Of a DNA stretch of 64,000 nt, positions 30,555 through 55,991 are shown piece by piece. A program made the translations under genes and the position numbers. The notes under the pieces are model-generated. The model was not told the origin of the DNA. It worked only from the letters and a program-made list of their open reading frames with translations, and did not search any database. The stretch is from Novosphingobium sp. 9U. GTDB taxonomy: Bacteria; Pseudomonadota; Alphaproteobacteria; Sphingomonadales; Sphingomonadaceae. Where the stretch lies: positions 186,001 to 250,000 of the forward strand of contig NZ_LR732469.1 in the NCBI RefSeq assembly GCF_902506425.1. Direction: 5' to 3'. Numbering within the stretch: the stretch's first letter is position 1; each line of letters starts with the position of its first letter.

Positions 30555-30785
30555 ATGCGTCGCGCGTCACTCATCCCCAGCATCGGCCTCCTGCTGCTGT
30601 GCCTCGGCGTCGGTATCGACGGCGTGCGGAGGTGGCGCAGGCGAAGCGGCGCGGTCCCCCGAACTCCTGAAGAGATTGCCGCGGCCGCACAGGCCCGCGG
30701 GCTGCCGATCCCGCCTGCATGCGAGGCGGGCGTCTCCGCCAACCTGGCGCTGCTGGCCGAGCACGCGGCGCGCCTGCGCGCATGA
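30555..30785 (+). CDS. hpxX: HpxX / AtzG-like small subunit (DUF4089)
   Basis: The C-terminal 40 residues (EEIAAAAQARGLPIPPACEAG... then NLALLAEHAARL) match the AtzG/HpxX group, small GatC-like partners of AtzE-type amidases. ATG 30555 has a perfect AGGAGG at 30541-30546 and gives 76 residues, but the first 20 are a hydrophobic stretch (LIPSIGLLLLCLGVGI) not expected in a cytoplasmic AtzG protein. A GTG at 30624 would remove it but lacks a good ribosome site. The 3' end overlaps hpxY by 4 bp (ATGA). First gene of the purine operon. Confidence 0.75.
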   Translation: MRRASLIPSIGLLLLCLGVGIDGVRRWRRRSGAVPRTPEEIAAAAQARGLPIPPACEAGVSANLALLAEHAARLRA

Positions 30786-32134
30786 GTGCGATCCTGGATC
30801 TTGCGGCGCAGGTGCGCTCCGGTGCGGTCAGCGCCGTCAGCCTGGCCGAACGCACGCTCGCCGATATCGCGCGTGCCGATATCGGCTTGAACGCCGTCAC
30901 CCGCCTGCTGCCCGAGCGCGCCCTGAAGGAAGCCGCAGAGGTGGACGCCATGGTGGCAGCCGGGCGCGATCCCGGCCCGCTTGCAGGCGTGCCCTATGGC
31001 GTGAAGGACCTGTTCGACGTCCGCGGCCTGGCGACCACCGCCGGCTCCACGCTCTACGCCGGTGCGCCGCCGGCGACGCGCGATGCCGAAGCAGTGGCGC
31101 GCTTGCGTTCCGCCGGCGCGGTGCTGGTGGCGACGCTCAACATGGACGCGTTCGCCTACGGCTTTGCGACCATCAACGCCCATCACGGCACCACCCTGAA
31201 CCCGCACGATCCCGCACGCCTTGCAGGCGGGTCTTCCGGCGGTTCGGCGGCGCTGGTCGCAGCGGGGCTGGTCCCCTTCTCGCTCGGCTCGGACACCAAC
31301 GGCTCGATCCGCGTGCCGGCCAGTCTGACGGGGACCTTCGGCCTCAAGCCTACGCACGGGGACTTGCCGATGGACGGCGTCTTCCCGTTCGCAGCCAGCT
31401 TCGACGACATCAGCCCCTTCGCCAACAGCACCGCAGACCTCCACGCGGTCTGGGAAGTGCTGGCGGCTCGCGTCGTTGAGCCCCGGCGACGTGAGTTCCG
31501 GGTGGCTCGCCTCGGTGGCCGGTTCCGCCAGAACATCGACCCGGACCAGCTCGCCGCCATCGACGCGATTGCGCCGACAGCGCCGCTGCTGGACTTGCCC
31601 GACGTGGCGCGCGCACGCTCCGCCGCGTTCATCATCACCGCCTACGAAGGTGGCGCACTCCACCGCGAGCGCCTGGCGCGCGAAGCGATGGCCTTCGATC
31701 CCGCCGTGCGCGACCGCCTGCTCGCGGGCGCACTCCTGCCCAAGCGCCTGTACCTCGAAGCGCAGGCTTTCCGCCGCGCCTACGAGGCCAGAATCGCAGC
31801 GCTGGTTGCGGAGTTCGACGTATTGCTCGCGCCGGCGACGCCCTGTGCCGCGCCGCTGGTGGAGGACCCGCGCATTCTCATCGACGGTGCGCTGTCCCCC
31901 GCACGGGCGGATCTGGGCATCCACACCCAACCGATCAGCTTCCTCCGCCTGCCCGCGCTGAGCGTGCCCCTGCACCGGCCCGGTCGCTTGCCGCTCGGCC
32001 TGCAGCTGATCGGCCGGGCGCATCGCGAAGCGGACGTGTTTGCGTTTGCCGCGCAGCTGGAGGCACAAGGCGTGATCGGATGGTCGCAGCCGCGCGACAC
32101 GGGGCAGGCTACGCAGCAGGGGGCAATGGCGTGA
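30782..32134 (+). CDS. hpxY: HpxY / AtzE-family amidase
   Basis: A 450-residue amidase-signature enzyme. The catalytic triad is Lys75 (YGVKDLF), Ser151 (GGSSGGSAA) and nucleophile Ser175 (GSDTNGSIR), with spacing nearly identical to GatA. Together with the overlapping hpxX gene it matches the AtzE-AtzG pair that hydrolyses 1-carboxybiuret and the HpxY-HpxX pair of Klebsiella purine clusters. Oxalurate, chemically close to carboxybiuret, is the likely substrate here because a ureidoglycine transaminase producing oxalurate lies in the same operon; this is an inference. GTGA overlap with the permease gene. Confidence 0.88.
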   Translation: MSAILDLAAQVRSGAVSAVSLAERTLADIARADIGLNAVTRLLPERALKEAAEVDAMVAAGRDPGPLAGVPYGVKDLFDVRGLATTAGSTLYAGAPPATRDAEAVARLRSAGAVLVATLNMDAFAYGFATINAHHGTTLNPHDPARLAGGSSGGSAALVAAGLVPFSLGSDTNGSIRVPASLTGTFGLKPTHGDLPMDGVFPFAASFDDISPFANSTADLHAVWEVLAARVVEPRRREFRVARLGGRFRQNIDPDQLAAIDAIAPTAPLLDLPDVARARSAAFIITAYEGGALHRERLAREAMAFDPAVRDRLLAGALLPKRLYLEAQAFRRAYEARIAALVAEFDVLLAPATPCAAPLVEDPRILIDGALSPARADLGIHTQPISFLRLPALSVPLHRPGRLPLGLQLIGRAHREADVFAFAAQLEAQGVIGWSQPRDTGQATQQGAMA

Positions 32135-33504
32135 CACAGACCACCTTGGTGGAGGCGCAAGAGCCGCCACCCGCTGCAGAGACCGGCGCCCTCGCCCGCT
32201 ACTTCCAACTGGGCGCCCGTGGCACCGACGTGCGCACCGAAGTGCTTGCCGGCGTTACGACCTTCCTGACGATGGCCTATATCGTGCTGGTGAACCCGGC
32301 GATCCTGGGTAGCGCCGGCATGCCGGTGGCGGCGGTGGCAGCGGCAACCTGCTTTGCCGCGGCATTCGCCTCGATCTTGATGGGCCTGGTCGCCAACACG
32401 CCGTTGGCGCTGGCGCCGGGCATGGGGCTGAACGCCTACTTCAGCTACACCGTCGTCCAGCAGATGGGGGTGCCCTGGCAAGTCGCGCTGGGATGCGTGT
32501 TCATCTCCGGCGTCGCGTTCCTGGTGTTGACCGCGACCGGCGTACGCCAGTTGATCGTCGCTTCGATCCCGCAATATCTCTTCGCCGCGGTGGCAGGCGG
32601 GATCGGGCTGTTCATCGGCTTCATCGGCCTCAAGGACGCAGAGATCGTCGTCGCCAATCCGGCGACCTTCGTGGCGCTGGGCGATCTCAAGGCACCCGGC
32701 GCGGCGCTGGCGCTGTTCGGCCTGGTGGTGATCGGCGCGCTGAGCGTCTGGAAGGTGCGTGGGGCGATGCTGATCGGCATCGTCGCCACCGCGATCGTCG
32801 GCTGGCTGGCGGGACAGGTGAAGATCGACCCGCAGCCTTACTCGCTCTCCGCTCTGACGGGCACGGCCTTGCAGCTCGACCTCAAGGGCGTGTTCGGCCT
32901 TGGCGGCAGTCACGGGTTGGGCTTGCTGGAGATCCTGTTCGTGTTCCTGTTCGTCGACCTGTTCGACAACATCGGCACGCTGGTGGCCGTGACCAAGCGT
33001 GCCGGGCTGATGGACTCGGCGGGCCGTATCCCACGGCTCAACCGTATCCTGTTCACCGATGCCACTGCCACGATCGTGGGCTCGATGGCGGGCACCAGCA
33101 CCGTCACCAGCTATGTCGAGAGCGCCGCCGGCGTGCAGGCGGGCGGGCGCACCGGGCTGACCGCGGTCGTCACCGGAGTGCTGTTCCTGCTGACCATGTT
33201 CGTTGCGCCCTGTGCCCAGCTGATCCCGCTTGCCGCCACCGCGCCTGCGCTGATCATCGTCGGCGGGCTGATGCTGCTGCCCTTGACCGAGGTCGAGTGG
33301 GAGGATCCGCTCTCCGCCATCCCTGCCTTCCTCACAGTGGCGATGATCCCGCTGACCTTCTCGATCGCCAACGGCCTGGCCTTCGGCATCACGGCGCATG
33401 CCGCGCTCAAGCTGGTGCGCGGCACGGTGGTCAAGGGTGACTGGTTCCTGCTGCTGCTCGCCGCCTTGTTCGTGGTGCGCTTCGCCTGGATGGGAGGCGC
33501 ATGA
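32131..33504 (+). CDS. NCS2 purine permease, AzgA-like
   Basis: A 457-residue inner-membrane permease with 12-14 hydrophobic segments. The N-terminal TEVLAGVTTFLTMAYIVLVNP and the NTPLALAPGMGLNAYFSY block define the AzgA/AdeP/GhxP branch of NCS2, proton symporters of adenine, guanine or hypoxanthine. FVFLFVDLFDNIGTLV and GTSTVTSYVESAAGV carry further conserved residues. GTG 32131 overlaps the hpxY stop. It likely imports bases released by the periplasmic nucleosidases of this locus. Confidence 0.93.
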   Translation: MTQTTLVEAQEPPPAAETGALARYFQLGARGTDVRTEVLAGVTTFLTMAYIVLVNPAILGSAGMPVAAVAAATCFAAAFASILMGLVANTPLALAPGMGLNAYFSYTVVQQMGVPWQVALGCVFISGVAFLVLTATGVRQLIVASIPQYLFAAVAGGIGLFIGFIGLKDAEIVVANPATFVALGDLKAPGAALALFGLVVIGALSVWKVRGAMLIGIVATAIVGWLAGQVKIDPQPYSLSALTGTALQLDLKGVFGLGGSHGLGLLEILFVFLFVDLFDNIGTLVAVTKRAGLMDSAGRIPRLNRILFTDATATIVGSMAGTSTVTSYVESAAGVQAGGRTGLTAVVTGVLFLLTMFVAPCAQLIPLAATAPALIIVGGLMLLPLTEVEWEDPLSAIPAFLTVAMIPLTFSIANGLAFGITAHAALKLVRGTVVKGDWFLLLLAALFVVRFAWMGGA

Positions 33505-34430
33505 TGCGGTTGCTCTTCACGCTTGCCTTGTCGCTGTTGGCGACGCCCGCCCTCGCCAAGCCGCTCGACAAGACACCTCGCACAGTGGTCATGACCGCGT
33601 TCTTCCCCGAGTGGCAGGCGCTGGAGCACGCGGTTGAGACGCCCCGGACCTACAAGATCAACGGCCTGACCTTCCTCACTGGCAAGATGGAGGGCAAGCC
33701 GGTGGTGCTGATGCAAAGCGGCGTCAGCATGGTCAACGCGGCGATGAACACGCAGCTGGTGCTCGACCGTTTCAAGGTGAAGCGCATCGTCTTTTCCGGT
33801 ATCGCCGGCGGCGTCGACCCGGACCTGACGATCGGCGACGTGGTCGTCGCGCAGGACTGGGCGCAGTACCTGGAGGTCTCCTTCGCGCGCAAGACGGCGC
33901 AGGGATGGAAGACGCCCGAGCCGGTCGACCCCGCAGCACCGAAGAACTGGGGCATGATGTTCCCGCGCGGCGTGCGCGTGGGCAACGCCAGCGAGCCGGC
34001 CGAGCGGCGCTACACCATCGCCGTCGATCCCGGCCTCGTCGCCCTTGCCCGGCAAGTGGCGGGCACGACGCGCCTGCAGCGTTGCGTCAGCGCGCAGCAG
34101 GCGCAGGCAGACGCACCGCGCGGCTCCTGCCTCGATCACGAGCCCAAGATCGTCGTCGGCGGCACGGGCGTCAGCGCCAGCGTGTTCGCCGACAATGCCG
34201 AGTTCCGCGAGTACCTTCAGGCCACCTACAAGGCCCGCGTGCTCGACATGGAGAGCGCCGCCGTGGCACAAGTCGCCTATGCGAACCAGGTGCCCGCGGT
34301 GGTGTTCCGCAGCTTGTCGGACCTCGCCGGAGGCGACGAGAGCGAGAACCAGATGCAGACCTTCATGGCGCTCGCCTCGGTGAACTCGGCGCAAGTGGTG
34401 CGCGCCTTCGTGAAGGCGCTGCCGAACTGA
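33501..34430 (+). CDS. Secreted MTA/SAH-nucleosidase-like protein
   Basis: A 309-residue member of the nucleoside phosphorylase/nucleosidase superfamily (Pfs/MTAN side). SGIAGGVDPDLTIGDVVVAQ, the LDMESAAVAQVA ribose-binding block and FRSLSDLAGG with the catalytic Asp are visible. Unusually it has a classical signal peptide (LLFTLALSLLATPALA), so it should act in the periplasm. In a purine operon the likely task is hydrolysis of nucleosides to free bases for the adjacent AzgA-like permease. An insert with two cysteines (QRCVSAQ and RGSCLDH) may form a disulfide, fitting a periplasmic location. Confidence 0.85.
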   Translation: MMRLLFTLALSLLATPALAKPLDKTPRTVVMTAFFPEWQALEHAVETPRTYKINGLTFLTGKMEGKPVVLMQSGVSMVNAAMNTQLVLDRFKVKRIVFSGIAGGVDPDLTIGDVVVAQDWAQYLEVSFARKTAQGWKTPEPVDPAAPKNWGMMFPRGVRVGNASEPAERRYTIAVDPGLVALARQVAGTTRLQRCVSAQQAQADAPRGSCLDHEPKIVVGGTGVSASVFADNAEFREYLQATYKARVLDMESAAVAQVAYANQVPAVVFRSLSDLAGGDESENQMQTFMALASVNSAQVVRAFVKALPN

Positions 34431-36007
34431 TGGAGACCGTGCGCGCCACGAACGCCATCGTCACTGCGCCGCACGTGCTCGCCGCCGAGGCCGGCTGTGC
34501 CGTATTGCGCGACGGCGGCAACGCGATCGAGGCGACGGTGGCTGTGGCGGCGGCGCTGGCGGTGGTCTACCCGCACATGACCGGGATCGGCGGCGATGGC
34601 TTCTGGTTGATCCGCGAGCCGGATGGCCACGTGCACTCGATCCACGGGTGCGGCGGCGCGGCGGCCGCGGCAGACCTGTCGCTTTATGCCGCAATGGACG
34701 CGGTGCCGACCCGCGGGCCGCTTGCCGCAAACACGGTGGCAGGCACGATTTCCGGCTGGGCGGCGGCACTGGAAGAGCCGGGCTGCACTCTGCCGCTCGA
34801 CCGGCTGCTGCGCGACGCGATCCACCATGCGGGGGCCGGCGTGCCCGTCACGGCCGGCGGAGAAGCGATCGCCGCGGCGAAGAGCGCGGAACTGCGCGCG
34901 CAACCGGGCAGCTACGGCGCGGTGTTCGAGCCGGAAGGCCGCCCGCTCCGCCAGGGCGACGTGCTGCGCCAGCCGCTGCTCGCCGCGACCCTGCGCCGGC
35001 TGGCGGCAAATGGGCTCGACGACTTCTATAGGGGCGAACTGGCCGCCGCGATTGCGCAAGACCTGCAGGCCTTGGGAAGTCCCGTCGTCGCCGCCGACCT
35101 CGCCGCACACGCGTCCAGCCGGCCCGAACCGCTGAGCGTGCCGATCGCCGGCGCCCGGCTCTACAACAGCACGCCGCCAACTCAAGGGTTCGCCTCGCTG
35201 GTGATCCTGGCGCTGTTCGACCGTCTCGTGGCGGACGCACCGGACCAGTTCGCGCACGTCCACGGCTTGATCGAGGCGACCAAGCAGGCCTTCCTCCTGC
35301 GCGATGCCCACGTCGGCGATCCGCTTCACACGGATTACGACTTCCAGGCCCTCCTCGACGATCCCGCGGCGCTCGACGCCCTCGCTGCCCGGCTCGATCC
35401 GGTGCGTGCCCTGCCCTGGCCCCAGCCGCCGCAATGGGGCGACACCTGCTGGTTCGGTGCGGCGGATAGCGAGGGTCGGGTCGTCTCCGCGATCCAATCG
35501 ACGTACTTCGAGTTCGGCTCGGGCCTGGTGCTGCCGCAGACCGGGATCACCTGGCAGAACCGCGGCAGCTCGTTCCGCCTGGCCGAGTCCGGCTGGAATG
35601 CGCTCAAGCCCGGGCGCAAGCCGTTCCACACGCTCAATCCGGCGCTGGCGGTGTTCGACGATGGGCGCGTCATGGCTTACGGCACCATGGGCGGCGAGGG
35701 TCAGCCGCAGACGCAGGCTGCGTTGTTCACCCGCTATGCCCGCTTTGGGATCGACCTGCAGGAGGCGATCAGCGCGCCGCGTTGGCTGCTGGGGCGCACC
35801 TGGGGCGAGCAGTCGACCACGCTCAAGCTGGAGGACGGGTTCAACGAGGCGCTCTACGCGCAACTGGCGCAAGCCGGCCACGACGTGGAGCGGGTCGGCC
35901 CACTGACCGCAACCATGGGCCACGCCGGCGCCATCGTACGCCTTTCTGGCGGCGGCTTCCAAGGCGCCACCGACCCACGCAGCGACGGTGGAGTGAGCGG
36001 GTGGTGA
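34430..36007 (+). CDS. hpxW: Oxamate amidohydrolase-like proenzyme HpxW (gamma-glutamyltransferase fold)
   Basis: A 525-residue Ntn-hydrolase of the gamma-glutamyltransferase family. The predicted autocleavage nucleophile is Thr339 in WGDTCWFG; the downstream GSGLVLPQTGITWQNRG block and TMGGEGQPQTQ (instead of the GGSRI/GG motif of true GGT) match HpxW, which hydrolyses oxamate to oxalate and ammonia in Klebsiella urate breakdown. No signal peptide, unlike most GGTs, supports a cytoplasmic catabolic role. ATG 34430 shares one base with the preceding stop. Followed by a dispersed repeat. Confidence 0.85.
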   Translation: METVRATNAIVTAPHVLAAEAGCAVLRDGGNAIEATVAVAAALAVVYPHMTGIGGDGFWLIREPDGHVHSIHGCGGAAAAADLSLYAAMDAVPTRGPLAANTVAGTISGWAAALEEPGCTLPLDRLLRDAIHHAGAGVPVTAGGEAIAAAKSAELRAQPGSYGAVFEPEGRPLRQGDVLRQPLLAATLRRLAANGLDDFYRGELAAAIAQDLQALGSPVVAADLAAHASSRPEPLSVPIAGARLYNSTPPTQGFASLVILALFDRLVADAPDQFAHVHGLIEATKQAFLLRDAHVGDPLHTDYDFQALLDDPAALDALAARLDPVRALPWPQPPQWGDTCWFGAADSEGRVVSAIQSTYFEFGSGLVLPQTGITWQNRGSSFRLAESGWNALKPGRKPFHTLNPALAVFDDGRVMAYGTMGGEGQPQTQAALFTRYARFGIDLQEAISAPRWLLGRTWGEQSTTLKLEDGFNEALYAQLAQAGHDVERVGPLTATMGHAGAIVRLSGGGFQGATDPRSDGGVSGW

Positions 36008-36022
36008 GTGTAAGCCTGTCCA

Positions 36023-36173: not shown

Positions 36174-37418
36174 ATGACCGGCGCCCGCGCGGTGACCCGA
36201 TGCGATGAACTCGGCCTGCCGCCTTACAGCGACATGCCGGGCGGGCTCTACCGCGGCTATCTCACCCCCGCCTACCTTGCCGCGCAGGATGCGCTCGCCG
36301 GCTGGATGGCCGAGGCTGGCATGGCCGTCCGCCGCGACCCGGCCGCCAATCTCGTCGGCCGCTACGAGGGCACGGATCCGCAAGCGCCGGCCCTGCTCAT
36401 CGGCAGCCATCTCGATTCCGTGCGCGACGGCGGCCGCTATGACGGGCCGCTGGGCATTATGCTCGGCATTGAGTGCGTCGCCGCGCTCAGCGCGCAGGGC
36501 CGGCGCTTGAAGTTTCCCATCGAGGTCTACGCCTTCGGAGACGAGGAGGGCTCCCGCTTTCCTGCGGCCATGCTGACCAGCCGCGCAATAGCCGGGACTT
36601 TGACACCGGCCGCGCTGGAGATTGCCGATGCCGAGGGCATGACCTTGCAGGCGGCGCTCGAACTCGCGTCTACCTCCCCGTTCGTTCTTGAGGCTTACCT
36701 GACCGCCGCTCGCGCACCTGGCTCTACCCTCGCCTACCTCGAAGCCCATATCGAGCAAGGTCCGGTCCTCGAAGCCGAGGGCCTGGCCGTCGGCACCGTT
36801 ACCGGCATCGCCGCGCAGCTGCGCTACAAGGTGAGCGTGCAAGGCATGGCGGGCCACGCCGGCACCACCACGATGCACCTGCGCCGCGATCCGCTCGCCG
36901 GCGCGGCAGAGATGGTGCTCGCGGTGGAGGCGCTGGCCCGGGCCGACAACTCGGACGTGGTCGCCACTGTCGGCGCGATCGAGGCGCTGCCGGGCGCGCC
37001 TAACGTGATCCCCGGCGAAGTCCGCTTCACCATCGACGTGCGCTCCGGCGCCGTCGAACGCCGCGACGCGGTGGCCGAGGCGATCCTGGCCCGAATTGCC
37101 GACATTGCCAGCGTGCGCAATCTGAACCTAGCCGTGCCCCGCATCCACGACTTGCCCGCCAGCCCCTGCGACCCCTTGCTGATGAACCTCATGGATCAGG
37201 CGCTCGCCGGGGCTGGCCAGCCCGTCCGTCGCCTAGTCTCGGGCGCCGGGCACGACGCCATGAACATCGCCGCGCTGTGCCCCACCGCAATGCTGTTCAT
37301 TCGCTGCAAGGACGGTATCAGCCACAATCCCGCCGAGCACGTCGACCCCGCCGATGCGCAGATCGCGTTGCAGGTCATGCTCGGATTCATCGAACGACTG
37401 GCCGCCACTTATGCCTGA
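36174..37418 (+). CDS. hpxK: Allantoate amidohydrolase
   Basis: A 414-residue M20-family amidohydrolase of the allantoate/N-carbamoyl-amino-acid group. It hydrolyses allantoate to ureidoglycine, CO2 and ammonia with two metal ions. Metal ligands are seen in GSHLDSV, the bridging GDEEGSRF, EAHIEQGPVLE and the C-terminal SHNPAEHV; substrate-binding blocks are GHAGTTTMHLRRDP and SGAGHDAMN. ATG 36174 follows GGGAAGGA by 8 nt, and that site belongs to the repeat. It overlaps the transaminase gene by 8 bp. Confidence 0.9.
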   Translation: MTGARAVTRCDELGLPPYSDMPGGLYRGYLTPAYLAAQDALAGWMAEAGMAVRRDPAANLVGRYEGTDPQAPALLIGSHLDSVRDGGRYDGPLGIMLGIECVAALSAQGRRLKFPIEVYAFGDEEGSRFPAAMLTSRAIAGTLTPAALEIADAEGMTLQAALELASTSPFVLEAYLTAARAPGSTLAYLEAHIEQGPVLEAEGLAVGTVTGIAAQLRYKVSVQGMAGHAGTTTMHLRRDPLAGAAEMVLAVEALARADNSDVVATVGAIEALPGAPNVIPGEVRFTIDVRSGAVERRDAVAEAILARIADIASVRNLNLAVPRIHDLPASPCDPLLMNLMDQALAGAGQPVRRLVSGAGHDAMNIAALCPTAMLFIRCKDGISHNPAEHVDPADAQIALQVMLGFIERLAATYA

Positions 37419-38643
37419 CCTGGACCCGCTTCTGTTCGGCGAGATCGACCCGCCTCAGCGCCTGCTGATGGGCCCCGGCCCGGTCAATGCGCACCCGCGC
37501 GTGCTGCGGGCGATGAGCGCGGACCTTCTGGGCCAGTTCGATCCCGAGATGACCGGCTACATGAACCAGGTCATGGCGCTCTACCGCCCGATCTTCGGCA
37601 CGGCGAATGAGTGGACGATGCTGGTCGACGGCACCGCGCGCGCCGGGATCGAAGCCGCGCTGGTCAGCCTGGTGGCACCGGGCGACACCGTGCTGGTCGT
37701 CAACTTCGGGCGCTTCGGCCTGCTGCTGACCGAGATCCTGGCGCGGATCGGCGCAGTGGTCGAGACGGTCGAGGCGCCCTGGGGCGAGGTCGTGCAGCTC
37801 GAGGCCATCGGCGAGGCGATCCACCGCGTCCAGCCGCACGTCGTCGCCACCATCCACGGCGACACCTCGACCACGATGGCGCAGCCGCTCGATGGCCTTG
37901 GCGAGCTGGCCCATGCCGCCGGCGCGCTGCTCTATGTCGATGCGACCGCGACCATCGGCGGCATGGAGCTCGCCGCCGACCGCTGGGGCGCGGACGTCGT
38001 GACCGGCGGCTTGCAGAAGTGCCTGGGCGGGCCCTCCGGATCGGCGCCGATCACCATCTCGCCTCGTTCCGCCGAGCACATCGGGCGCCGCCGCCATGTC
38101 GAACAGGGCATCCGCCGCCGCGACATCGCCGATGGGCAAGGACCGCGGATCGGTTCGAACTACTTCGACCTGGCCATGATCATGGATTATTGGTCCGAGA
38201 AGCGACTGAACCACCACACCGAGGCGACCAGCATGCTCTACGCCGCGCGCGAATGTGCGCGCATCGCGCTGGGCGAGGGTCTGGAGGCGCGATACGCCCG
38301 CCACGCCAGCGCCGGCCGGGCGATGACCGTGGGCCTACGCGCCATGGGGCTGACGGTGTTCGGCGACGATGCCTATCGCATGACGAACGTCACCGGCGTG
38401 CACATCCCGGACGGTGTGGATGGCGAGGCGGTCCGCACCATGATGCGCGAGGCGTTCGAGATCGAGATCGGCACCGCGTTTGGTCCTTTGCAGGGCAAGA
38501 TCTGGCGTCTGGGCGCGATGGGCTACAACGCGATGAAGCACAAAGTGCTGCTGACGCTCGCGGCGCTGGAGGCGTGCCTGAGAGCGCAGGGCTACGCCGT
38601 GCCGCTGGGCGAGGCGGTGCCGGCGGCACTGGAGGCATGGTGA
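37411..38643 (+). CDS. pucG: (S)-ureidoglycine-glyoxylate transaminase, PucG-like
   Basis: A 410-residue class-V PLP aminotransferase. The N-terminal LLMGPGPVNAHPRVLRAM and the Lys in GGLQKCLGGPSG (PLP Schiff base) are family marks, as is the preceding Asp in VDATATIGG. In purine operons this group transaminates ureidoglycine with glyoxylate, giving oxalurate and glycine, the product used by the oxalurate/oxamate genes hpxX, hpxY and hpxW of this operon. A general alanine-glyoxylate role is possible, but context favours ureidoglycine. ATG 37411 overlaps the preceding stop. Confidence 0.87.
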   Translation: MPDLDPLLFGEIDPPQRLLMGPGPVNAHPRVLRAMSADLLGQFDPEMTGYMNQVMALYRPIFGTANEWTMLVDGTARAGIEAALVSLVAPGDTVLVVNFGRFGLLLTEILARIGAVVETVEAPWGEVVQLEAIGEAIHRVQPHVVATIHGDTSTTMAQPLDGLGELAHAAGALLYVDATATIGGMELAADRWGADVVTGGLQKCLGGPSGSAPITISPRSAEHIGRRRHVEQGIRRRDIADGQGPRIGSNYFDLAMIMDYWSEKRLNHHTEATSMLYAARECARIALGEGLEARYARHASAGRAMTVGLRAMGLTVFGDDAYRMTNVTGVHIPDGVDGEAVRTMMREAFEIEIGTAFGPLQGKIWRLGAMGYNAMKHKVLLTLAALEACLRAQGYAVPLGEAVPAALEAW

Positions 38644-48288: not shown

Positions 48289-49761
48289 ATGCACGATCAA
48301 GACGACGCGCTCTGGAACGCCGACCTCGCGCCGACGGGGCCGGAGCAGCGCACTTGGCGCTGGTACCACTTCGCGGCGCTGTGGGTGGGCATGGTCGTCG
48401 CGGTCCCGACCTGGATGCTGGCGTCCGGGCTGATCGAGCAAGGCATGTCGGCCGTGCAGGCGACCTGGACGGTGCTGCTGGGCAACGTGATCATCCTGGC
48501 GCCGATGCTGCTGATCGGCCATCCCGGAGCGCGCTACGGCGTGCCGTTTGCAGTGCTGGTGCGCGCCTCGTTCGGCACCACCGGCGCGCGGCTGCCGGCG
48601 CTTGCCCGCGCGCTGGTCGCCTGCGGATGGTACGGCATCCAGACCTGGATCGGCGGCGAGGCGCTGCTGACGCTGCTCGGCATCTTCCTGCGCCAGGACT
48701 TGCGCGGTGCGGTCCTGCCGATCGTGGGTATCGGCGCCGGTCAACTGCTCGCCTTCCTGGTGTTCTGGGCGGTGCAGCTGCTGTTCGTGCGCAAGGGGCT
48801 GTTGACCATCCGGCGGCTGGAGACCTGGACCGCACCGCTCAAGCTGCTGGCCTGTGCCGGCTTGCTGTGGTGGGCGATCAGCGCTGCCGGAGGGCTCGGG
48901 CCGATCTTTGCGCAGCCCTCCGCCTTCGCGCCCGGCGGCCCGAAGCAGGGCCAGTTCTGGGCGGTGTTCCTGCCCACGCTGACCGCCATGGTCGGCTTCT
49001 GGGGAACGCTGGCGCTCAACATTCCGGACTTCACCCGCTTTGCGCGCAGCCAGCGCGACCAGGCCATCGGCCAGACACTCGGCCTTCCTCCCACGATGGG
49101 CCTGATCGCGCTGATCAGCGTGATGACCACGTCGGCGACGGTCGTGATCTACGGCAAGGCGATCTGGGACCCGGTCGCGCTCGCCGGCACGCTGAGCGGA
49201 CCCTTCGTACTGCTCGGCCTACTGGTGATCGCGGTCGACACCGTCTCGTGCAACATCGCCGCCAACCTGGTGTGCTCGGCCTACGACTTCGCCTCGATCG
49301 CGCCCTCGCGCATCGACTATCGCCGCGGCGCGCTGATCACCGCGGCGATCGGCCTCTTCATGATGCCTTGGAAGCTGCTGGAGAGCACGCAAGGCTACAT
49401 ATTTACCTGGCTGACCGGCTACGGCGCGCTGCTGGGGCCGATCGCGGGCATCCTGATCGCCGACTACTGGATGGTGCGCGGCACGCGGCTGGACGTCGAG
49501 GGACTGTACCGCGTCGATGGCCCGTACAGCTACGGCAACGGCTGGAACGGCAAGGCGCTCGCGGCGCTGGCTCTCGGCATCGCGCCGAACCTGCCGGGGT
49601 TCCTGGCCGTCTCCGCGCCCGGAGTTTTCAGCCGCGTTGGCTCACTGTGGACCGGCATCTACAGCTACGCATGGTTCGTCGGCGTGGGTGTCTCGCTGAC
49701 AAGCTATGCCTTGCTGATGAAGGCGCGGCCTGCCGGTACGCCGGCAATCGGTTCTGCTTGA
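48289..49761 (+). CDS. NCS1-family permease (allantoin/nucleobase type)
   Basis: A 490-residue NCS1 cation symporter with about 12 membrane segments. The N-terminal NADLAPTGPEQRTWRWYHF, GHPGARYGVPFAVLVRASFG, the ACGWYGIQTWIGG stretch with conserved Trp, and LNIPDFTRFARS match the bacterial allantoin/uracil/hydantoin branch (PucI, Mhp1). With an AzgA-like permease already present, it more likely imports allantoin, uracil or a related ring. Last gene of the purine operon, 26 bp after guaD. Confidence 0.9.
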   Translation: MHDQDDALWNADLAPTGPEQRTWRWYHFAALWVGMVVAVPTWMLASGLIEQGMSAVQATWTVLLGNVIILAPMLLIGHPGARYGVPFAVLVRASFGTTGARLPALARALVACGWYGIQTWIGGEALLTLLGIFLRQDLRGAVLPIVGIGAGQLLAFLVFWAVQLLFVRKGLLTIRRLETWTAPLKLLACAGLLWWAISAAGGLGPIFAQPSAFAPGGPKQGQFWAVFLPTLTAMVGFWGTLALNIPDFTRFARSQRDQAIGQTLGLPPTMGLIALISVMTTSATVVIYGKAIWDPVALAGTLSGPFVLLGLLVIAVDTVSCNIAANLVCSAYDFASIAPSRIDYRRGALITAAIGLFMMPWKLLESTQGYIFTWLTGYGALLGPIAGILIADYWMVRGTRLDVEGLYRVDGPYSYGNGWNGKALAALALGIAPNLPGFLAVSAPGVFSRVGSLWTGIYSYAWFVGVGVSLTSYALLMKARPAGTPAIGSA

Positions 49762-49774: not shown

Positions 49775-50353
49775 TCAAACGTCCTTGTCGCCAAGCCAGT
49801 GCTCCGTCTCGGGTGGCACGAACCCCGCGATCCGGTCGAGCATCGCCTCGGGATCCTTCTCCACCAGCAGCATCGCGCGGTGGCGCGGCTGGAGGAATCC
49901 TTGCGACACGACATGGTCGATGAAATCGCGCAAGCCCGAGTAGAAACCGCCCACGTCCAGCAGTCCGACGGGCTTGGCGTGGTATCCCAGCTGCGACCAG
50001 CACCAGGCCTCGAACATCTCCTCGAAGGTGCCGATGCCTCCGGGCAGCGTCACGAAGCCGTCGGCAAGGTTCGCCATCAGCGCCTTGCGCTCGTGCATGG
50101 TCTGGACGACGTGGAGCTCGCTGATACCCTGGTGGTCGTGCTCACGCGCGCGCAGCGCTTCGGGGATGACGCCGATCACTTCGCCGCCCGCGGAGCAGAC
50201 CGCATCGGCGATCACGCCCATCAGGCCGACCGTGCCGCCGCCGTAGACCAGCCCGATGCCGCGCTTTGCCAGCAGGGTACCGAACTGCTCGGCCGCTTGG
50301 CGATAGATCGGTAGGGTCCCGGCGGAGGAGCCCAAGTAGACGCAGATGCGCAT
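49775..50353 (-). CDS. LOG-family (TIGR00730-type) nucleotide phosphoribohydrolase
   Basis: A 192-residue Rossmann-fold LOG protein. The signature PGGIGTFEEMFE is intact, as are YGGGTVGLMG and the Arg/Lys of MHERKALM. LOG enzymes hydrolyse AMP or cytokinin-riboside monophosphates to base and ribose-5-phosphate. Its ATG overlaps the stop of the phosphoribosyltransferase gene (TGATG), so the two are co-translated. It is convergent with the purine operon, 13 bp from its end. Confidence 0.9.
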   Translation of the reverse strand: MRICVYLGSSAGTLPIYRQAAEQFGTLLAKRGIGLVYGGGTVGLMGVIADAVCSAGGEVIGVIPEALRAREHDHQGISELHVVQTMHERKALMANLADGFVTLPGGIGTFEEMFEAWCWSQLGYHAKPVGLLDVGGFYSGLRDFIDHVVSQGFLQPRHRAMLLVEKDPEAMLDRIAGFVPPETEHWLGDKDV

Positions 50354-50886
50354 CAGGACAGGCGCTCCGGCACGGACAGCGCTTCCTCCAACAGGACCTC
50401 CTTCGAGCTGACCGATTCCCACGGGAACACGAACCAGCGCTTGTCCTCGGCCCGATCGATCGCGTCGGTCCAGTAATCGACTTGCGCGCGCGAGCCCGAG
50501 TTGTTGATCAGTACGGCAAAGCGCAGGTTCTCCGCCGCGCAGCCGTTCCCCACCAGCAACTCGCGAATGTAGGTGATGGTGCTGCCACTGTCGTTGATGT
50601 CGTCCACGAACAGCAGCCGCGATCCTTCGGCGCTCATGGTCGCGATCTTGGCAAGCAGTTCGTCGGCAAAGCCCGGCACGCGCGAGGAGTGGTCGATCGA
50701 GAGCATCGGCAAGTCGAGCTGGTGCGAAATGTAGACCGCCGGCACCAACCCGCCCCGGCCCACGCCGATCACGAATTCCGGCGCCCAGTCGCTTTCGCGG
50801 ATCTTGCGCGAAAGCAGGCGAACTTTGGCGAGGAACTCCTCGTAGTATTCCAGGTAGTAGAGGTCGGGTTCTGCCGTTTCGCTCAT
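50353..50886 (-). CDS. Purine-type phosphoribosyltransferase
   Basis: A 177-residue type-I phosphoribosyltransferase. The PRPP-binding motif is LLFVDDINDSGST; an upstream FVIGVGRGGLVPAV block is the usual second loop. This is the pattern of xanthine-guanine or hypoxanthine PRTases that salvage bases to nucleotides. AAGGAA precedes ATG 50886. Co-encoded with a LOG protein that catalyses roughly the reverse release of base from nucleotide. Base specificity is not readable here. Confidence 0.85.
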   Translation of the reverse strand: MSETAEPDLYYLEYYEEFLAKVRLLSRKIRESDWAPEFVIGVGRGGLVPAVYISHQLDLPMLSIDHSSRVPGFADELLAKIATMSAEGSRLLFVDDINDSGSTITYIRELLVGNGCAAENLRFAVLINNSGSRAQVDYWTDAIDRAEDKRWFVFPWESVSSKEVLLEEALSVPERLS

Positions 50887-50974: not shown

Positions 50975-51892
50975 TCACCCGGGACCGGCATAGCTCAGCT
51001 GCGCAAACCCGTTCTCGATCTCCCCCAGCACGATCCCAGCCGCATAGGACGGCGTCCGCGCGGCGGCGGTGCAAAGCGCCAGGGTCATCGGCCGCAGCAG
51101 GGCGTCCGAGATGCGCGTGAAGGAGAGCACGCCCGCCTCCACCTCGGTCTTGACGTCTAGCGAGGTGAGAATGCCGATGCCGACCCGCTCCAGAACTAGC
51201 GAGGTGATCATCTGGATGTTGTCGGAGATCGCCGCGCGCTCGGCCGCCATTCCCGTCGCGCCTTCCAGCACCGCGATCTGCTGCGAAACCGCCAGCGGCT
51301 CACCGGGCACTATCAACGGCTCGCCCAGGCAAGCCGAGAAGCGCGTCTCGCCCGTACCCGCAAGCGGGTGGTCGGGCGGCGTGACGAAGCCCAGCACCAC
51401 CTCGACGAAAGCGCGCACCGTCAGGTCGCGATAGGAGTGCGGTTCGAACAGAATGCCGAAGTCAACCTCGCCGTCTGCCACCGCCTTGCGCACGGCCTCG
51501 TTCTCCAGCACGCGCACGCCGATGGTGATGCCCGGATAGCGCGTCTTGATCGAGCGGATCGCGGCGGGGATCGCGCCCTTCGCCAGCGCATCGATCACCG
51601 CCATCTCGACATGGCCGCGTTTCAGCCCGCGCAAGTCCTCGATCTGCGCGCGCACGTCGAGCATGTTCTTCTGCCAGCGCCCGCCCGCCGCCATCATGAT
51701 CTCGCCCGCGGCCGTCAGCCGCAAGCCCGAGGGCAAGCGCTCGAACAAGGGCGCGCCAATCTCGGCCTCGACGTTCAGGATCTGACGCGCGATCGCCGAG
51801 GCTGAGACGTTCAGCTCGTCGGCCGCACGCCGGATCGAGCCGAGCCGACCCACCGCCATGAAGTAGCGCAGAAAGCGTGAGAATGCCGGCAT
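50975..51892 (-). CDS. LysR-family regulator of the purine locus
   Basis: A 305-residue LysR regulator. The winged HTH is at residues 1-60 (RRAADELNVSASAIARQI) and the effector domain follows, with VDFGILFEP and VGIGILTSL. It is divergent from the TonB receptor gene, and a motif 15-49 bp upstream of its start is repeated upstream of hpxX, so autoregulation and control of the purine operon are likely. The effector may be urate or another purine intermediate; this is not shown. Confidence 0.88.
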   Translation of the reverse strand: MPAFSRFLRYFMAVGRLGSIRRAADELNVSASAIARQILNVEAEIGAPLFERLPSGLRLTAAGEIMMAAGGRWQKNMLDVRAQIEDLRGLKRGHVEMAVIDALAKGAIPAAIRSIKTRYPGITIGVRVLENEAVRKAVADGEVDFGILFEPHSYRDLTVRAFVEVVLGFVTPPDHPLAGTGETRFSACLGEPLIVPGEPLAVSQQIAVLEGATGMAAERAAISDNIQMITSLVLERVGIGILTSLDVKTEVEAGVLSFTRISDALLRPMTLALCTAAARTPSYAAGIVLGEIENGFAQLSYAGPG

Positions 51893-52202
51893 CGACCCCG
51901 CTCTAATTTTTGCAACGCAGCATGGAATTCATTGCGTTTGCGAGCATTAAGTCAAGCGCATAGCACCATGTTGAGCAAGATCGGGCGACCTGCGGGCGCG
52001 TGTTCTTGCAAGGGGCTTGGCAAACAGGGCGGAACAAGTGGGCAGTGCGGGCTGCCCTTCATCACACGACCAGGCTGCAGGCGATCCGTCAGAGATCGCA
52101 GCCAAGCCACGCGCGTAACGACATCGGGGAGAGGCCAACAGCATCGGGGACCGGACCGGAGGGACAGCCCTGCCGCGAACCGGCCCGCACAGGGGGTAAG
52201 AC
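51893..52202. promoter_or_regulatory. Divergent LysR / TonB-receptor intergenic region
   Basis: A 310-bp gap with no gene. It contains the candidate operator at 51907-51941 close to the LysR start, then about 260 bp of leader before the receptor start, where ATG 52203 is preceded by CAGGGGGTAAG. No strong hairpin or riboswitch pattern was recognised in the leader. Confidence 0.7.
51907..51941 (+). promoter_or_regulatory. Candidate LysR operator, LysR/TonB-receptor side
   Basis: TTTTTGCA at 51907-51914 and TTCATTGCGTTTGC at 51928-51941, identical in wording and spacing to the site at 30486-30520. GCAACGCA and the complement of TTGCGTTTGC form an imperfect dyad, as expected for a LysR dimer or tetramer site. 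Confidence 0.65.
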
Positions 52203-54758
52203 ATGACGGCCAAGCGCACACCTGCCGATCGGGCGGCGACCACTGCATCACGTTCAAAGCGCCACCGGGCGCTGCTCGCCGCCACGGCGAGCCTGCTGTG
52301 CTGCTCGGCCCTGTGCAGCCCAGCGATGGCCGAAGATGCTGCCGCAGCGGATGCTGCCGACGAGGCGCCTGGAGACGAGATCGTCGTCACCGGCGCGCTC
52401 GACGCGCTGCCGGTCAAGGACGTTGGCACCGTATTCGGCTTCGACAAGACGGTGACCGAAACGCCGCGCTCGGTATCGACCGTCAGCCAGGCGCAGATCG
52501 AACGCTTCGGCGTGACCAGCATCTACGACCTGATCGCGCAGGCGCCGGGCACCTTCACCAACTCGTTCTTCGGCGTCGGCGGTTCGCTCGACATTCGCGG
52601 CACGCCCGGCGAGACCTATTTTCGCGGCATCCGGCGCCTGGACAACCCGGGCAACTACCCCACCCCGATCGGCGCCGCCGACCGCATCGACATCGTGCGC
52701 GGGCCTGCCTCTCCCATCATGGGCCCAGCCAAGACCGGCGGCTACATCAACTTCGTGCCCAAGTCCGCCCGCGTCGGCAAGGGCAGCTACTTGAGCGAGC
52801 CAAAAGCGGAGCTGACCTACACTCGCGGCAGCTGGAACAACAACATGCTGTCCGGCAGCATCGTCGGCCCTGGCAACATCGGCAACCACGAGTTCGGCTA
52901 TAGCCTTTACGGCGAGCTGACCGATGCCGACAGCTACTACGACAACATCGAGACGCGTCAGACGCTGCTCCAGGCCTCGTTCGACACCGACCTCACGCCC
53001 GAGCTGCGGATCGAGTTCGGCGGCATGTACCAGAACTTCAAGGGCACGCAGAACGGCGGCTGGAACCGCGTGACGCAGGACCTGATCGACAACGGCACCT
53101 ACATTACCGGCCAGGCGAGCAACCTCGACACCAACGGCGACGGCAAGATCTCCCCCGCCGAGAGCCGCGCGGCCAACGGCGGTCTAGGCCTGGGCACCTT
53201 CGGCGGTGCGTTCTGCACCACCCCGCCCTTCTCGGTGCCCTTTGCCTTCGGCCTCAACAACGCGTGCCTCTCCACGCTCTACCCCGACTCCGGCCTGACG
53301 AACGTCGGCACCACCAAGCTCAGCCGCAAGAAGACGCTGACCGGCCCCAACGACTTTCTCGATAACATCGCCAAGACGCTCTACGCCGACCTGATCTGGG
53401 ATGCGGGCGAAGACCTGGAGATCAAGAATCAGTTCTTCTACGACGGGTACAAGAACAGCAACGAGAACGCATACGGCTTCTCGCAGAAGGCGAACTCCTA
53501 CGTGATCGAGGATCGGCTGGTCCTGTCCAAGAAGATCACCAACGAAGCCGGCACCTTCCAGATCCAGGCGGCGCCGTCGATCCGCTATACCAAGTTCAAG
53601 CACGCCGATGACTTTGGCTACGAATACTTCGGCCGCGTCGATTTGACCGAGGGTTACACGCCGCGCTCTACGCGCCTGCTCTCGACCCAGACAGATTCCG
53701 AATACTCGAGCTATTTTCAGGGCCATTATACCGACGCGGCGTTCAGTCTGCTCGCCGACCTGGACTTCGACTTCGGCCTCGATGTGACACTGGGCGGCCG
53801 TTACGACCGCATGAGCGTCACTTCCAGCGCGGTGCTACCCAAGATCGACCCGACGCAGTTCGGCGTCAACATTCCGCTGGCGGCGGTGAACACGCCCAAC
53901 CGTGCGAACGGCTACAATACGCAGAAGGACACCAAGGGCGTATGGTCGTGGACGGCCAGCGCCAACTACGAGCTGCCCTTCGGCCTGATCCCCTACGCCA
54001 CGATTGCCAAGCAGTCGGTGATCATCACCGGCCAGGGCGCCGAGGTCGATCCGTCGAACGTCTATGGCGACAGCTGGATCACCTCGTCCAAGCTTTACGA
54101 AGGCGGCATCAAGGGCAGCTGGCTGGACAGCAAGCTCTATGCCGCGCTGTCGGTCTACAAACAGACGCGCACCGACTATTCGATCCAGTCGCTGACGGTG
54201 AACCAGGCCATTCGCACCACCGGGCTGGAGGCGGAAGCGCGCTGGTCGGTTGATCGCCACTTGCTGCTGACCACCGCCTACACCCATACGAAAGTGCTGA
54301 ACCAGGCCTTCGCCAACGGCGGCGGTGTGTTCTTCTACTACTACGGCGCCGACCTACTTTCCGCCAACGGCGTCGACCCGACGCTGATCCTGGGCGGCGC
54401 GCCCAATGGCCTCGTCCTGCTCACCGACAAAAGCCTGGCCGAGCGTCCCGGCATCCCGCGCAACCTCTATTCGGGCACCGCGTCCTATGCGTTCGACAAC
54501 GGCATCGCCCTGACCGCCAGCGCTTACCATGTGCCCAAGACCTGGGCCGACTACCCTCACACGCTGCGGCTGCCTTCATACACCATCGTCGACCTGGGCG
54601 TGTCGTTCGAGACCGAGCACTGGCTGTTCCAGGTCAACGTCAAGAACGCGCTGAACGAACGGTACTTCCGCGCCAACTTCGTCGAGCTCTACGCCTCGCA
54701 GAACGTGAAGCCGGAACTGCCGCGTAGCTGGCAGGCGGCGATTAAGTATAAGTTCTGA
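52203..54758 (+). CDS. TonB-dependent outer-membrane receptor
   Basis: An 851-residue TonB-dependent receptor. A signal peptide of about 43 residues ends near SPAMA; a short TonB-box-like stretch DEIVVTGA follows; the plug runs from about 75 to 200 (TETPRSVSTVSQAQI, IDIVRGPASPIMGPA); a 22-strand barrel ends with the typical aromatic terminus IKYKF. At residues 309-320 there is a perfect EF-hand loop pattern (DTNGDGKISPAE), likely in a surface loop and perhaps calcium-binding. Siderophore-type plugs look alike, but its place next to the purine regulator and a NUP gene suggests import of a purine compound. Confidence 0.92.
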   Translation: MTAKRTPADRAATTASRSKRHRALLAATASLLCCSALCSPAMAEDAAAADAADEAPGDEIVVTGALDALPVKDVGTVFGFDKTVTETPRSVSTVSQAQIERFGVTSIYDLIAQAPGTFTNSFFGVGGSLDIRGTPGETYFRGIRRLDNPGNYPTPIGAADRIDIVRGPASPIMGPAKTGGYINFVPKSARVGKGSYLSEPKAELTYTRGSWNNNMLSGSIVGPGNIGNHEFGYSLYGELTDADSYYDNIETRQTLLQASFDTDLTPELRIEFGGMYQNFKGTQNGGWNRVTQDLIDNGTYITGQASNLDTNGDGKISPAESRAANGGLGLGTFGGAFCTTPPFSVPFAFGLNNACLSTLYPDSGLTNVGTTKLSRKKTLTGPNDFLDNIAKTLYADLIWDAGEDLEIKNQFFYDGYKNSNENAYGFSQKANSYVIEDRLVLSKKITNEAGTFQIQAAPSIRYTKFKHADDFGYEYFGRVDLTEGYTPRSTRLLSTQTDSEYSSYFQGHYTDAAFSLLADLDFDFGLDVTLGGRYDRMSVTSSAVLPKIDPTQFGVNIPLAAVNTPNRANGYNTQKDTKGVWSWTASANYELPFGLIPYATIAKQSVIITGQGAEVDPSNVYGDSWITSSKLYEGGIKGSWLDSKLYAALSVYKQTRTDYSIQSLTVNQAIRTTGLEAEARWSVDRHLLLTTAYTHTKVLNQAFANGGGVFFYYYGADLLSANGVDPTLILGGAPNGLVLLTDKSLAERPGIPRNLYSGTASYAFDNGIALTASAYHVPKTWADYPHTLRLPSYTIVDLGVSFETEHWLFQVNVKNALNERYFRANFVELYASQNVKPELPRSWQAAIKYKF

Positions 54759-54764
54759 TCTTGT

Positions 54765-54880
54765 CTCCCTCCCCGGCGGGGGGGGGGGCTGTGAGTGGCG
54801 GCGCGTGGCCGAAGGCCGCGCGTCCACGCTGGCGTGAGTACGCCCCCACCCAACCTTCCGCTTCAGGGAGGGCCCGTCTT
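54765..54880. repeat. Dispersed palindromic repeat, diverged copy 6, with G-run
   Basis: CTCCCTCCCCGGCGGG at the left and CTTCAGGGAGGG at the right, with a central GCGCGTGGCC-gaa-GGCCGCGCGT hairpin. A run of 11 G residues lies at 54778-54788. It lies between the TonB receptor and the NUP gene and may reduce co-transcription. Confidence 0.65.
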
Positions 54881-54908
54881 GCACAATCGAAAGGGTAGAG
54901 CCTCGCCT

Positions 54909-55991
54909 ATGGCTTTCCGCAACCTCTTGGCCGCCGGCGCACTGACCATGGCGCTCGCAACACAAGCAGCAGCCGCACCGTCGGAGTGCGCCCCCACCCA
55001 GCTCTGCGCCAACCCGCTACCGGTCAAGGTCGTGATCGTCTCGCTGTTCGAGATCGGCGCCGATGAAGGCGACGCTGCCGGCGAGTTCCAGCTGTGGAAG
55101 ACACGGCGACAGCTCACCCAGCGCATTGCCTTTCCGCAAGGCTACCATGACCTCTACTACAATCCGCAAACGCAAGTGCTGGGCATGGTCACCGGTGTCG
55201 GCACCGCCCGCTCGACCGCGGCGACCATGGCGTTGGGGCTCGATCCCCGCTTTGACCTGACCCATGCTTATTGGCTGGTGGCCGGCATCGCAGGGATCGA
55301 TCCCGAGGACGCCTCGATCGGCTCCGCCGCGTGGGCGCGCTATGTCGTCGATGGCGACCTGGCGCACGAGATCGACGCGCGCGAAATCCCCAAGGACTGG
55401 AAGTGGGGCTACTTTCCGCGCGGTGCAAAGGGCCCGAACGACACGACCGCCAAGCTTAACCCGGACGGCAACGTCTTCCAGGTCAACCCCGCGCTGGTCG
55501 GCTGGGCCTTTCGCCTGACCAAGGACATGGCGCTACCCGACTCGCCAGCGATCCGGACCGAGCGGATGCGCTACACCGGCTATCCTAACGCCCAGAGGCC
55601 GCCGTTCGTGCTGCAGGGCGAGCAGTTGGCGGCGATGACCTTCTGGCACGGCGCGCTGCTGAACGGCTGGGCGAACGACTGGGTCAAGCGCTGGACCGGC
55701 GGCAAAGGTGAGTTCGTCACGTCCGCGATGGAGGACAGCGGCGTGTTCCAGGCGATGACTTACCTCGATCATGCCGGGCGCGCGGACAAGGACCGGGTGC
55801 TCGTGCTGCGCGCGGGCAGCAACTACACCATGCCACCGCCCGGCGTGGACGCGGCCTCGTACCTGTTGCGCGAGAACGAAGGCTATGCCGGCCTCGAAGC
55901 GGCGGTGGAGAGCCTGTACCAGGTCGGGTCTAAAGTGGTCGATGAGTGGCTCGACCACTGGGACCGCTACGAAGCGCAGCCGCCGCGCTGA
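54909..55991 (+). CDS. Secreted purine nucleoside protein (NUP family)
   Basis: A 360-residue protein of the NUP/purine-nucleoside-permease family with a signal peptide (LLAAGALTMALATQAAAA). Conserved blocks: PVKVVIVSLFEIG, GYHDLYYNPQTQVLGMVTGVGTA (read in part), WLVAGIAGIDPEDAS, TSAMEDSGVFQAM and VLRAGSNYTMPPP. The fold is related to nucleoside phosphorylases rather than to membrane carriers, and there are no membrane helices, so a periplasmic nucleoside-cleaving or binding role is more likely than transport. ATG 54909. Confidence 0.88.
   Translation: MAFRNLLAAGALTMALATQAAAAPSECAPTQLCANPLPVKVVIVSLFEIGADEGDAAGEFQLWKTRRQLTQRIAFPQGYHDLYYNPQTQVLGMVTGVGTARSTAATMALGLDPRFDLTHAYWLVAGIAGIDPEDASIGSAAWARYVVDGDLAHEIDAREIPKDWKWGYFPRGAKGPNDTTAKLNPDGNVFQVNPALVGWAFRLTKDMALPDSPAIRTERMRYTGYPNAQRPPFVLQGEQLAAMTFWHGALLNGWANDWVKRWTGGKGEFVTSAMEDSGVFQAMTYLDHAGRADKDRVLVLRAGSNYTMPPPGVDAASYLLRENEGYAGLEAAVESLYQVGSKVVDEWLDHWDRYEAQPPR

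Follow-up and report, generated by a model that had tools for sequence, protein, structure and literature searches.

Polysaccharide utilization loci (PULs) and the TonB-dependent carbohydrate utilization (CUT) loci of Xanthomonas combine a regulator, a TonB-dependent receptor, exported cleaving enzymes, inner-membrane carriers and cytoplasmic catabolism for the use of a glycan. A different gene set, the hpx operon of Klebsiella and other bacteria, serves purine utilization. Passage of nucleosides across the outer membrane is known for Tsx of E. coli, a porin (PMC11658791). Here we analyze a window of 64,000 nucleotides from the 4.64-Mb genome of Novosphingobium sp. 9U, assembled in 75 contigs (contig NZ_LR732469.1, positions 186,001 to 250,000; all coordinates below are those of the window), in which features of these systems meet. 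Seventeen co-directional purine genes (30555-49761) are followed by genes for a LOG-family protein, a phosphoribosyltransferase (PRTase) and a LysR-type regulator on the minus strand, and then by a TonB-dependent receptor and an exported NUP-family protein. We consider it likely that the whole forms a regulon, governed by the LysR protein through a common operator, for the use of external purine nucleosides.

The locus has the same classes of components as PULs and CUT loci, but with a purine nucleoside as the proposed substrate and a LysR protein in control; unlike in SusCD-type PULs, no SusD family occurs among the window genes scanned. With the Klebsiella operon it has in common hpxX, hpxY, an hpxW-like gene, hpxZ, puuE, uraD, uraH, guaD and permeases, and it differs in containing xdhABC, an exported MTAN-like enzyme and an operator sequence common to the TonB receptor operon. 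In place of a porin such as Tsx, the candidate importer is a plugged, TonB-driven receptor. In the accessible text of a 2024 review of TonB substrates, Tsx is the only context in which nucleosides appear, and the word 'purine' does not occur (PMC11658791), and the accessible parts of two marine studies report no nucleoside-linked TonB receptor (PMC7992965, PMC9870897). According to the same portion of one of them, a Polaribacter with 41 TonB transporter genes depleted no nucleoside by more than 20% (PMC7992965), so TonB-linked nucleoside uptake is not general. The open-access literature, partly surveyed, yielded no TonB receptor tied to purine or nucleoside uptake, which is weak evidence of absence.

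Conservation of the locus

To compare gene order, as the first-pass annotation of this DNA had proposed, we compared the window genes by tblastn with 80 loci from named genomes, the best 80 of 151 stretches found. LysR is present in 69 of the 80 loci (divergent from the receptor in 68), a downstream NUP gene in 70, xdh in 47 and guaD in 48; an adenosine deaminase (ADA) family gene, an 8-oxoguanine deaminase and a PbuX-type xanthine permease lie near the receptor in 55, 50 and 54 loci, respectively. When the 14 loci without more than 5 kb on both sides are left out, purine genes stand beside the receptor in 64 of 66, the exceptions being L045 and L065. The loci belong mainly to Sphingomonadaceae and Sphingobiaceae, with one from Erythrobacteraceae, three from Hyphomonadaceae and some from unplaced metagenome bins. 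The Hyphomonadaceae loci (L111, L118, L119) contain the same genes in a different order.

The ADA-family gene of the relatives is usually found between LysR and the receptor, and its product looks exported (e.g. L060:8099-9775, L066:8060-9844). Both ADA-like proteins scanned, at 78.3 and 94.5 bits, exceed the Pfam A_deaminase cut-off of 27, all three scanned 8-oxoguanine deaminases exceed their NCBIfam cut-off, and the two PbuX-type permeases scanned on NCBIfam fall one just above the cut-off and one under it. Nineteen of the 80 loci have a NUP gene upstream of the receptor, in 16 cases as a second copy in the same direction. Three members of the genus (L168-L170) have ADA and the receptor behind an operator-like site (scores 19.4-21.6; scoring is described below), with no NUP nearby. 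One locus (L177, genome G154) combines LysR, NUP, an 8-oxoguanine deaminase and the operator, with guaD and an MTAN-like gene nearby and no receptor, perhaps a natural receptor loss.

Linkage is matched by co-occurrence. Among 195 genomes of the genus, the receptor (E <=1e-90) is found in 74, NUP in 75 and PuuE above its cut-off in 82. Receptor and NUP occur together in 72 genomes, the receptor only in 2, NUP only in 3 and neither in 118 (Fisher p 5e-47; such p-values ignore shared ancestry). The corresponding numbers for receptor and PuuE are 73, 1, 9 and 112. Each genome was counted once for the receptor, so the second pieces found in G180 and in G288 and the 35% paralogue of G149 do not enter; also left out are three NUP matches and PuuE matches under the cut-off (82 of 92 PuuE genomes kept). 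The pattern is the opposite of a receptor and NUP not conserved beside the purine operon, which the first-pass annotation had named as the outcome that would speak against it: 72 of the 74 receptor genomes have NUP, and 73 have PuuE. In 69 of the 74 genomes no more than 1.5 kb separates NUP from the receptor. PuuE is more loosely placed: in the 73 shared genomes it is within 25 kb of the receptor in 49, on another contig in 19 and on the receptor's contig, at a distance of over 117 kb, in 5, and the last group indicates that the genes co-occur even when unlinked. Beyond the genus the system thins out. In 289 genomes of the class, receptors other than that of the window reach only 33-36% identity, in five genomes (E <=1e-60) that all lack NUP, and NUP exceeds its cut-off in three genomes, the window's own counted. 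Given such sparse matches, the system is not class-wide.

The operator

Both units of the locus, the catabolic operon and the LysR/receptor divergon, are preceded by an exact copy of the 14-bp sequence TTCATTGCGTTTGC, and no further exact copy exists in the whole 4.6-Mb genome. A search allowing up to two mismatches returns 19 genome matches versus 12 for a reversed control pattern; with inexact matches this close to background, only the exact copies carry weight. In relatives, wherever LysR is divergent (68 loci), the operator stands before it (67 with up to three mismatches, one with four), a count that leaves out the 12 of 80 loci without that arrangement. We built a position weight matrix (PWM) from these 68 sites (59 distinct) and did not use the hpx-operon site; independent tests are therefore limited to the catabolic-operon sites and the genome-wide pattern search. 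A Markov control of 2.56 Mb contained two matches scoring at least 13 and none scoring at least 20, while 500 random 1600-bp controls had a 95th percentile of 0.9 and a maximum of 17.4.

We scanned 1,600 bases upstream of hpxY (836 in L157) in 28 loci; because some of these are closely related, the counts are not independent. Sites were found in 13 of the 14 receptor-bearing loci in which hpxY is at least 64% identical and does not share a gap with the receptor, the miss being L157; they score 7.1-21.4 and lie 264-288 bases or about 1.2 kb before hpxY. In L060, of the group with the longer spacing, an SBF-like transporter gene (PF13593, L060:16497-17645) is located just upstream of hpxY. In L088 and L097, hpxY and the receptor share one gap, and the operator lies between them, with no LysR found there. 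Four receptor-less genomes (L161-L164) have no operator before hpxY. Among 12 operons unlinked to the receptor in the assembly (L148-L159), a site scoring at least 13 is present in four: L148 and L149, far off on the receptor's own contig, and L153 and L159, on other contigs of draft genomes. The operator is unlikely to be merely a site of LysR autoregulation, because it also precedes catabolic operons distant from LysR (L148, L149) and occupies the receptor-hpxY gap where LysR is missing (L088, L097). Judged by sequence, the receptor and the catabolic genes appear to share regulation, as in PUL and CUT loci. Separately, L133 and L141 (G000 C1:2272846, C54:5982) contain two identical operator-like sites (score 15.5), perhaps within a repeated element.

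Predicted exported enzymes

The NUP protein of the window has no 19-residue segment above 1.6 on the hydropathy scale, and the MTAN-like protein cross-matches the NUP profile PF06516 (29.7 bits, cut-off 27). From the lack of membrane spans together with this match, NUP does not look like a permease, and we read it as a putative exported enzyme. No related solved structure was found for it at E <=0.1. The MTAN-like protein exceeds the cut-off of TIGR01704 (100.9 vs 73.8 bits), falls under that of NF004079 (140 vs 169 bits) and has conserved stretches common to solved MTANs. Signal-like starts, called by a generous rule under which an in-frame start may lie as far as 330 bases upstream, are present in 35 of 41 ADA, 79 of 90 NUP and 24 of 25 MTAN-like proteins, against none of the guaD (0/50), PRTase (0/58), LysR (0/69) and puuE (0/22) controls.

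The namesake of the NUP family is the 'purine nucleoside permease' of Candida albicans. This protein is reported to let an adenine-auxotroph yeast use adenosine (PMC9431476), with no sensitization to toyocamycin. Cleavage of adenosine outside the cell would fit this result as well, although that is not the reading of its authors. The bacterial proteins are of the same family and appear exported and soluble.

The receptor

The receptor begins with a hydrophobic run ending in SPAMA, followed by EIVVTG; we take the former as the end of a signal peptide and the latter as a TonB box-like motif. Signal-like starts, by the rule given above, are present in 75 of 83 members of the receptor family. The PF00593 barrel profile does not match the window receptor, and it is annotated in many of its homologues among the matches listed; the host genome has 67 PF00593 matches, 66 of them above the cut-off. 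An AlphaFold model from 77 sequences has many long strands and a poorly modelled plug (mean predicted local distance difference test score, pLDDT, 76.3) and is usable for the barrel only; an earlier model from 23 sequences was poor (pLDDT 61.7). Foldseek comparison of the predicted barrel gives PiuA as the best match (E 3.8e-31), with FoxA and FhuA among the next.

Receptor residues 309-320 (53127-53162) form an EF-hand-like loop between strands, D-x-N-x-D-G-x-I-S-x-x-E in the window. D309, D313, G314 and E320 are invariant in all 77 aligned receptors, and the strict pattern occurs in 106 of 120 receptors among the homologues listed, in none of 8 paralogue loci of the host genome and in one of 6 distant homologue loci. 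The Foldseek matches include a BtuB structure with calcium. The loop is probably outside the cell, and it is conceivable that it makes ligand capture calcium-dependent. The receptor match of one genome (G180:C155:84587-87042) consists of two pieces that abut, which may reflect a gene break or an assembly error.

We placed 91 receptors in a tree, leaving out L173 (internal stop) and L182 (same locus as L065). The family is a supported clade of 86, of which 80 have a purine context, the labels being tblastn matches above 40% identity with no coverage floor; the other six need three losses.

Gene content of the locus

Gene content agrees with the first-pass annotation: all 17 genes of the co-directional array were identified by Pfam and NCBIfam (hpxX under the Pfam cut-off), as were the PRTase/LOG pair, the LysR gene, the receptor and the secreted NUP protein after it, and the proposed secreted nucleosidase within the operon corresponds to the MTAN-like protein with its predicted signal peptide (Table 1). 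The one array spans the enzymes from guanine to allantoate. NCBIfam cut-offs are passed by AtzE/HpxY, allantoate amidohydrolase, PuuE, UraD, UraH, XdhA, XdhB, XdhC, GuaD and HpxZ, and are not reached by the gamma-glutamyltransferase (GGT)-like protein, for which we assume the hpxW-like name, or by the flavoprotein, which has general flavoprotein matches only in Pfam and NCBIfam and which we presume to be an HpyO-like urate hydroxylase. The class V aminotransferase is presumably hpxJ/pucG-like, from its position.

Table 1. Genes and operator copies of the purine locus, in window coordinates
Feature	Position	Strand	Evidence
Operator copy 1, TTCATTGCGTTTGC (14 bp)	30507..30520	+	exact; starts 48 bases before hpxX; PWM 22.7
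hpxX, AtzG-like small subunit	30555..30785	+	PF13318 21.7 bits, under cut-off 24; tblastn matches in 13 loci
hpxY, AtzE-family amidohydrolase	30782..32134	+	NF006631 548 bits, cut-off 461
NCS2 nucleobase permease	32131..33504	+	PF00860 142 bits; no NCBIfam match
MTAN-like nucleosidase with predicted signal peptide	33501..34430	+	PF01048 142.8 bits
Gamma-glutamyltransferase-like (GGT/hpxW-like)	34430..36007	+	PF01019 above Pfam cut-off; NCBIfam 312.6 bits, under cut-off 357.85
M20 allantoate amidohydrolase	36174..37418	+	NF006775 586 bits, cut-off 479
Class V aminotransferase	37411..38643	+	PF00266
puuE, allantoinase	38801..39673	+	TIGR03212 504 bits, cut-off 424.6
hpxZ	39663..40043	+	NF033625 159 bits, cut-off 135; PF11533
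uraD, OHCU decarboxylase	40040..40483	+	TIGR03164 above cut-off
FAD/NAD(P)-binding oxidoreductase, HpyO-like, presumed urate hydroxylase	40480..41895	+	PF13454/PF13738
uraH, hydroxyisourate hydrolase	41865..42221	+	TIGR02962 above cut-off
xdhA	42223..43650	+	TIGR02963 578 bits
xdhB (start approximate)	43670..45961	+	TIGR02965 1190 bits
xdhC	45958..46875	+	TIGR02964 256 bits
guaD, guanine deaminase	46979..48262	+	TIGR02967 515 bits
NCS1 permease	48289..49761	+	TIGR00800 387 bits, cut-off 353
LOG-family phosphoribohydrolase	49775..50353	-	TIGR00730 196 bits, cut-off 96
Phosphoribosyltransferase, xanthine PRT-like	50353..50886	-	PF00156; NF006613 47.9 bits, under cut-off 138
LysR-type regulator, divergent from receptor	50975..51892	-	PF00126/PF03466
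Operator copy 2, TTCATTGCGTTTGC, LysR-receptor gap	51928..51941	+	exact; 36 bases before LysR start
TonB-dependent receptor	52203..54758	+	PF07715 plug 53.8 bits, cut-off 23.9
Exported NUP-family protein	54909..55991	+	PF06516 379 bits, cut-off 27

A molybdopterin oxidoreductase gene (PF00384, 28124-30400) adjoins the xdh-bearing operon in divergent orientation. GC-rich repeat-like elements with CTCCCC/GGGGAG-type arms are present in the gaps 36005-36175, 38641-38805, 46872-46982 and 54756-54912.

Discussion

Gene content, conserved linkage, co-occurrence and the shared operator sequence are directly observed. From them we infer the ligand, its transport, LysR binding and the enzyme activities. 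An exported deaminase and exported nucleoside-cleaving enzymes make best sense if purine nucleosides reach the periplasm, and the ligand of the receptor is in this way narrowed, probably, to purine nucleosides. Using TonB energy, the receptor would carry them across the outer membrane. Deamination of the nucleosides and release of the base would follow in the periplasm, through NUP and the MTAN-like enzyme, joined in many relatives by the exported ADA-family protein and in some by a second NUP. The NCS2 and NCS1 carriers (in relatives also the PbuX-type) would take the bases into the cytoplasm, where guanine deaminase, xanthine dehydrogenase, the urate hydroxylase with UraH and UraD, PuuE, allantoate amidohydrolase and the Hpx enzymes would break them down for nitrogen and carbon, while the LOG/PRTase pair may salvage part of them. 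LysR, encoded between both units, would act at the conserved site before each, presumably under purine induction. We hold it somewhat more probable than its alternatives taken together that all of this applies: a TonB-powered outer-membrane importer of purine nucleosides with an invariant, possibly calcium-dependent loop, deamination and base release in the periplasm before inner-membrane transport, and a single LysR regulon in Sphingomonadales, with the same genes reordered in Hyphomonadaceae. The first-pass annotation had likened the locus to a PUL for nucleosides or purines. Co-occurrence, adjacency, synteny, the shared operator and the relatives' exported ADA lend strong support to this uptake-and-use locus, with the receptor as the putative transporter and the enzymes in their predicted roles. 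Its further description as a new type of uptake system was overstated: TonB-linked utilization loci, hpx operons and Tsx are already known, and what appears to be new is the substrate class.

A number of observations weigh against this interpretation. The operator is not found before hpxY in eight loci with an hpxY of diverged sequence (47-56% identity; L120, L150, L151, L154-L156, L158, L179) and is missing from 8 of the 12 unlinked operons, and lone sites scoring 11-16 are no proof by themselves, because random controls reach 17.4. Six distinct receptors have no purine neighbors in the stretch examined (L045, L065, L180, and L093, L098 and L121, whose stretches are short on one side); in favor of the interpretation, their genomes have NUP elsewhere in all six cases and PuuE in four, both misses being metagenome bins. 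Nine genomes of the genus have PuuE and no receptor, and in an even sample of 119 genomes of the family only four, the window's included, have a receptor of at least 59% identity, with a fifth at 36%. The window itself has no ADA at the receptor, the single PF00962 match of the genome lying elsewhere. The ADA-like protein of L060 scores far under the NCBIfam adenosine deaminase cut-off (71 vs 216.55 bits), so adenosine deamination is only a candidate activity. Similarity between the NUP and MTAN-like profiles is weak (hhalign P 0.028, probability 1.7%), and the signal rule leaks, accepting 30 of 46 XdhC, 9 of 53 8-oxoguanine deaminase and 3 of 27 HpxY proteins. Finally, the solved folds nearest to the modelled receptor are mostly siderophore receptors, and its best NCBIfam match is TIGR01783 'TonB-siderophor', the cut-off of which it misses by a wide margin (140.1 vs 223.5 bits).

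The alternative that survives best, in our view still an unlikely one, keeps the receptor in the regulon as an importer of free purine bases, urate or another heterocycle, with nucleosides entering otherwise and the exported enzymes acting on nucleosides in the periplasm or outside. The NCS carriers, xanthine dehydrogenase and urate/allantoin genes that share the locus are compatible with it, as is the PbuX-like permease found close to the receptor in 54 of the 80 loci. By contrast, the receptor follows NUP (72 genomes; 2 + 3 discordant) more tightly than puuE (73; 1 + 9), and in L169 (G262) ADA and the operator accompany it, PuuE being 216 kb distant.

Rather more doubtful is import of larger purine compounds (nucleotides, oligonucleotides, NAD or cytokinin ribosides), on which NUP and ADA would act after trimming. 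A LOG phosphoribohydrolase does adjoin the regulator, and TonB transport, according to the review, serves ligands whose size or scarcity puts them beyond the reach of porins (PMC11658791). However, no nuclease or 5'-nucleotidase family occurs among the scanned locus proteins, the flanks of the loci not having been searched for them. A small TonB ligand also has precedent in PqqU, whose structure with pyrroloquinoline quinone (PQQ) is among the fold matches of the receptor; PqqU shares the TonB-type fold, with 12% identity in the fold alignment and an unrelated ligand.

We regard it as very improbable that the receptor takes up a siderophore or metal chelate, bringing iron or molybdenum for xanthine dehydrogenase, and is merely located in or co-regulated with a purine locus. 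Its best profile and fold matches are siderophore receptors, its relatives often bear the name 'siderophore receptor' in public records, and xanthine dehydrogenase requires iron-sulfur clusters and molybdopterin. Yet the operator of the receptor is that of the purine operon, and where xdh is outside the flank (e.g. L100, L103) ADA/NUP still accompany the receptor. Nor does the LysR-receptor gap contain a Fur-like site, the best candidate having 8 of 19 mismatches to a Fur consensus, a weak test as sphingomonad Fur sites may differ. Chance linkage of the receptor and the purine genes is ruled out by synteny, co-occurrence and the operator.

For one receptor family, the analysis points to a likely substrate other than iron, along with a regulator and an operator sequence. 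If the proposed function is true, the ligands of TonB-dependent transport would widen to nucleosides, a dissolved nitrogen source, and the bacterial NUP proteins would be recast as exported enzymes rather than permeases.

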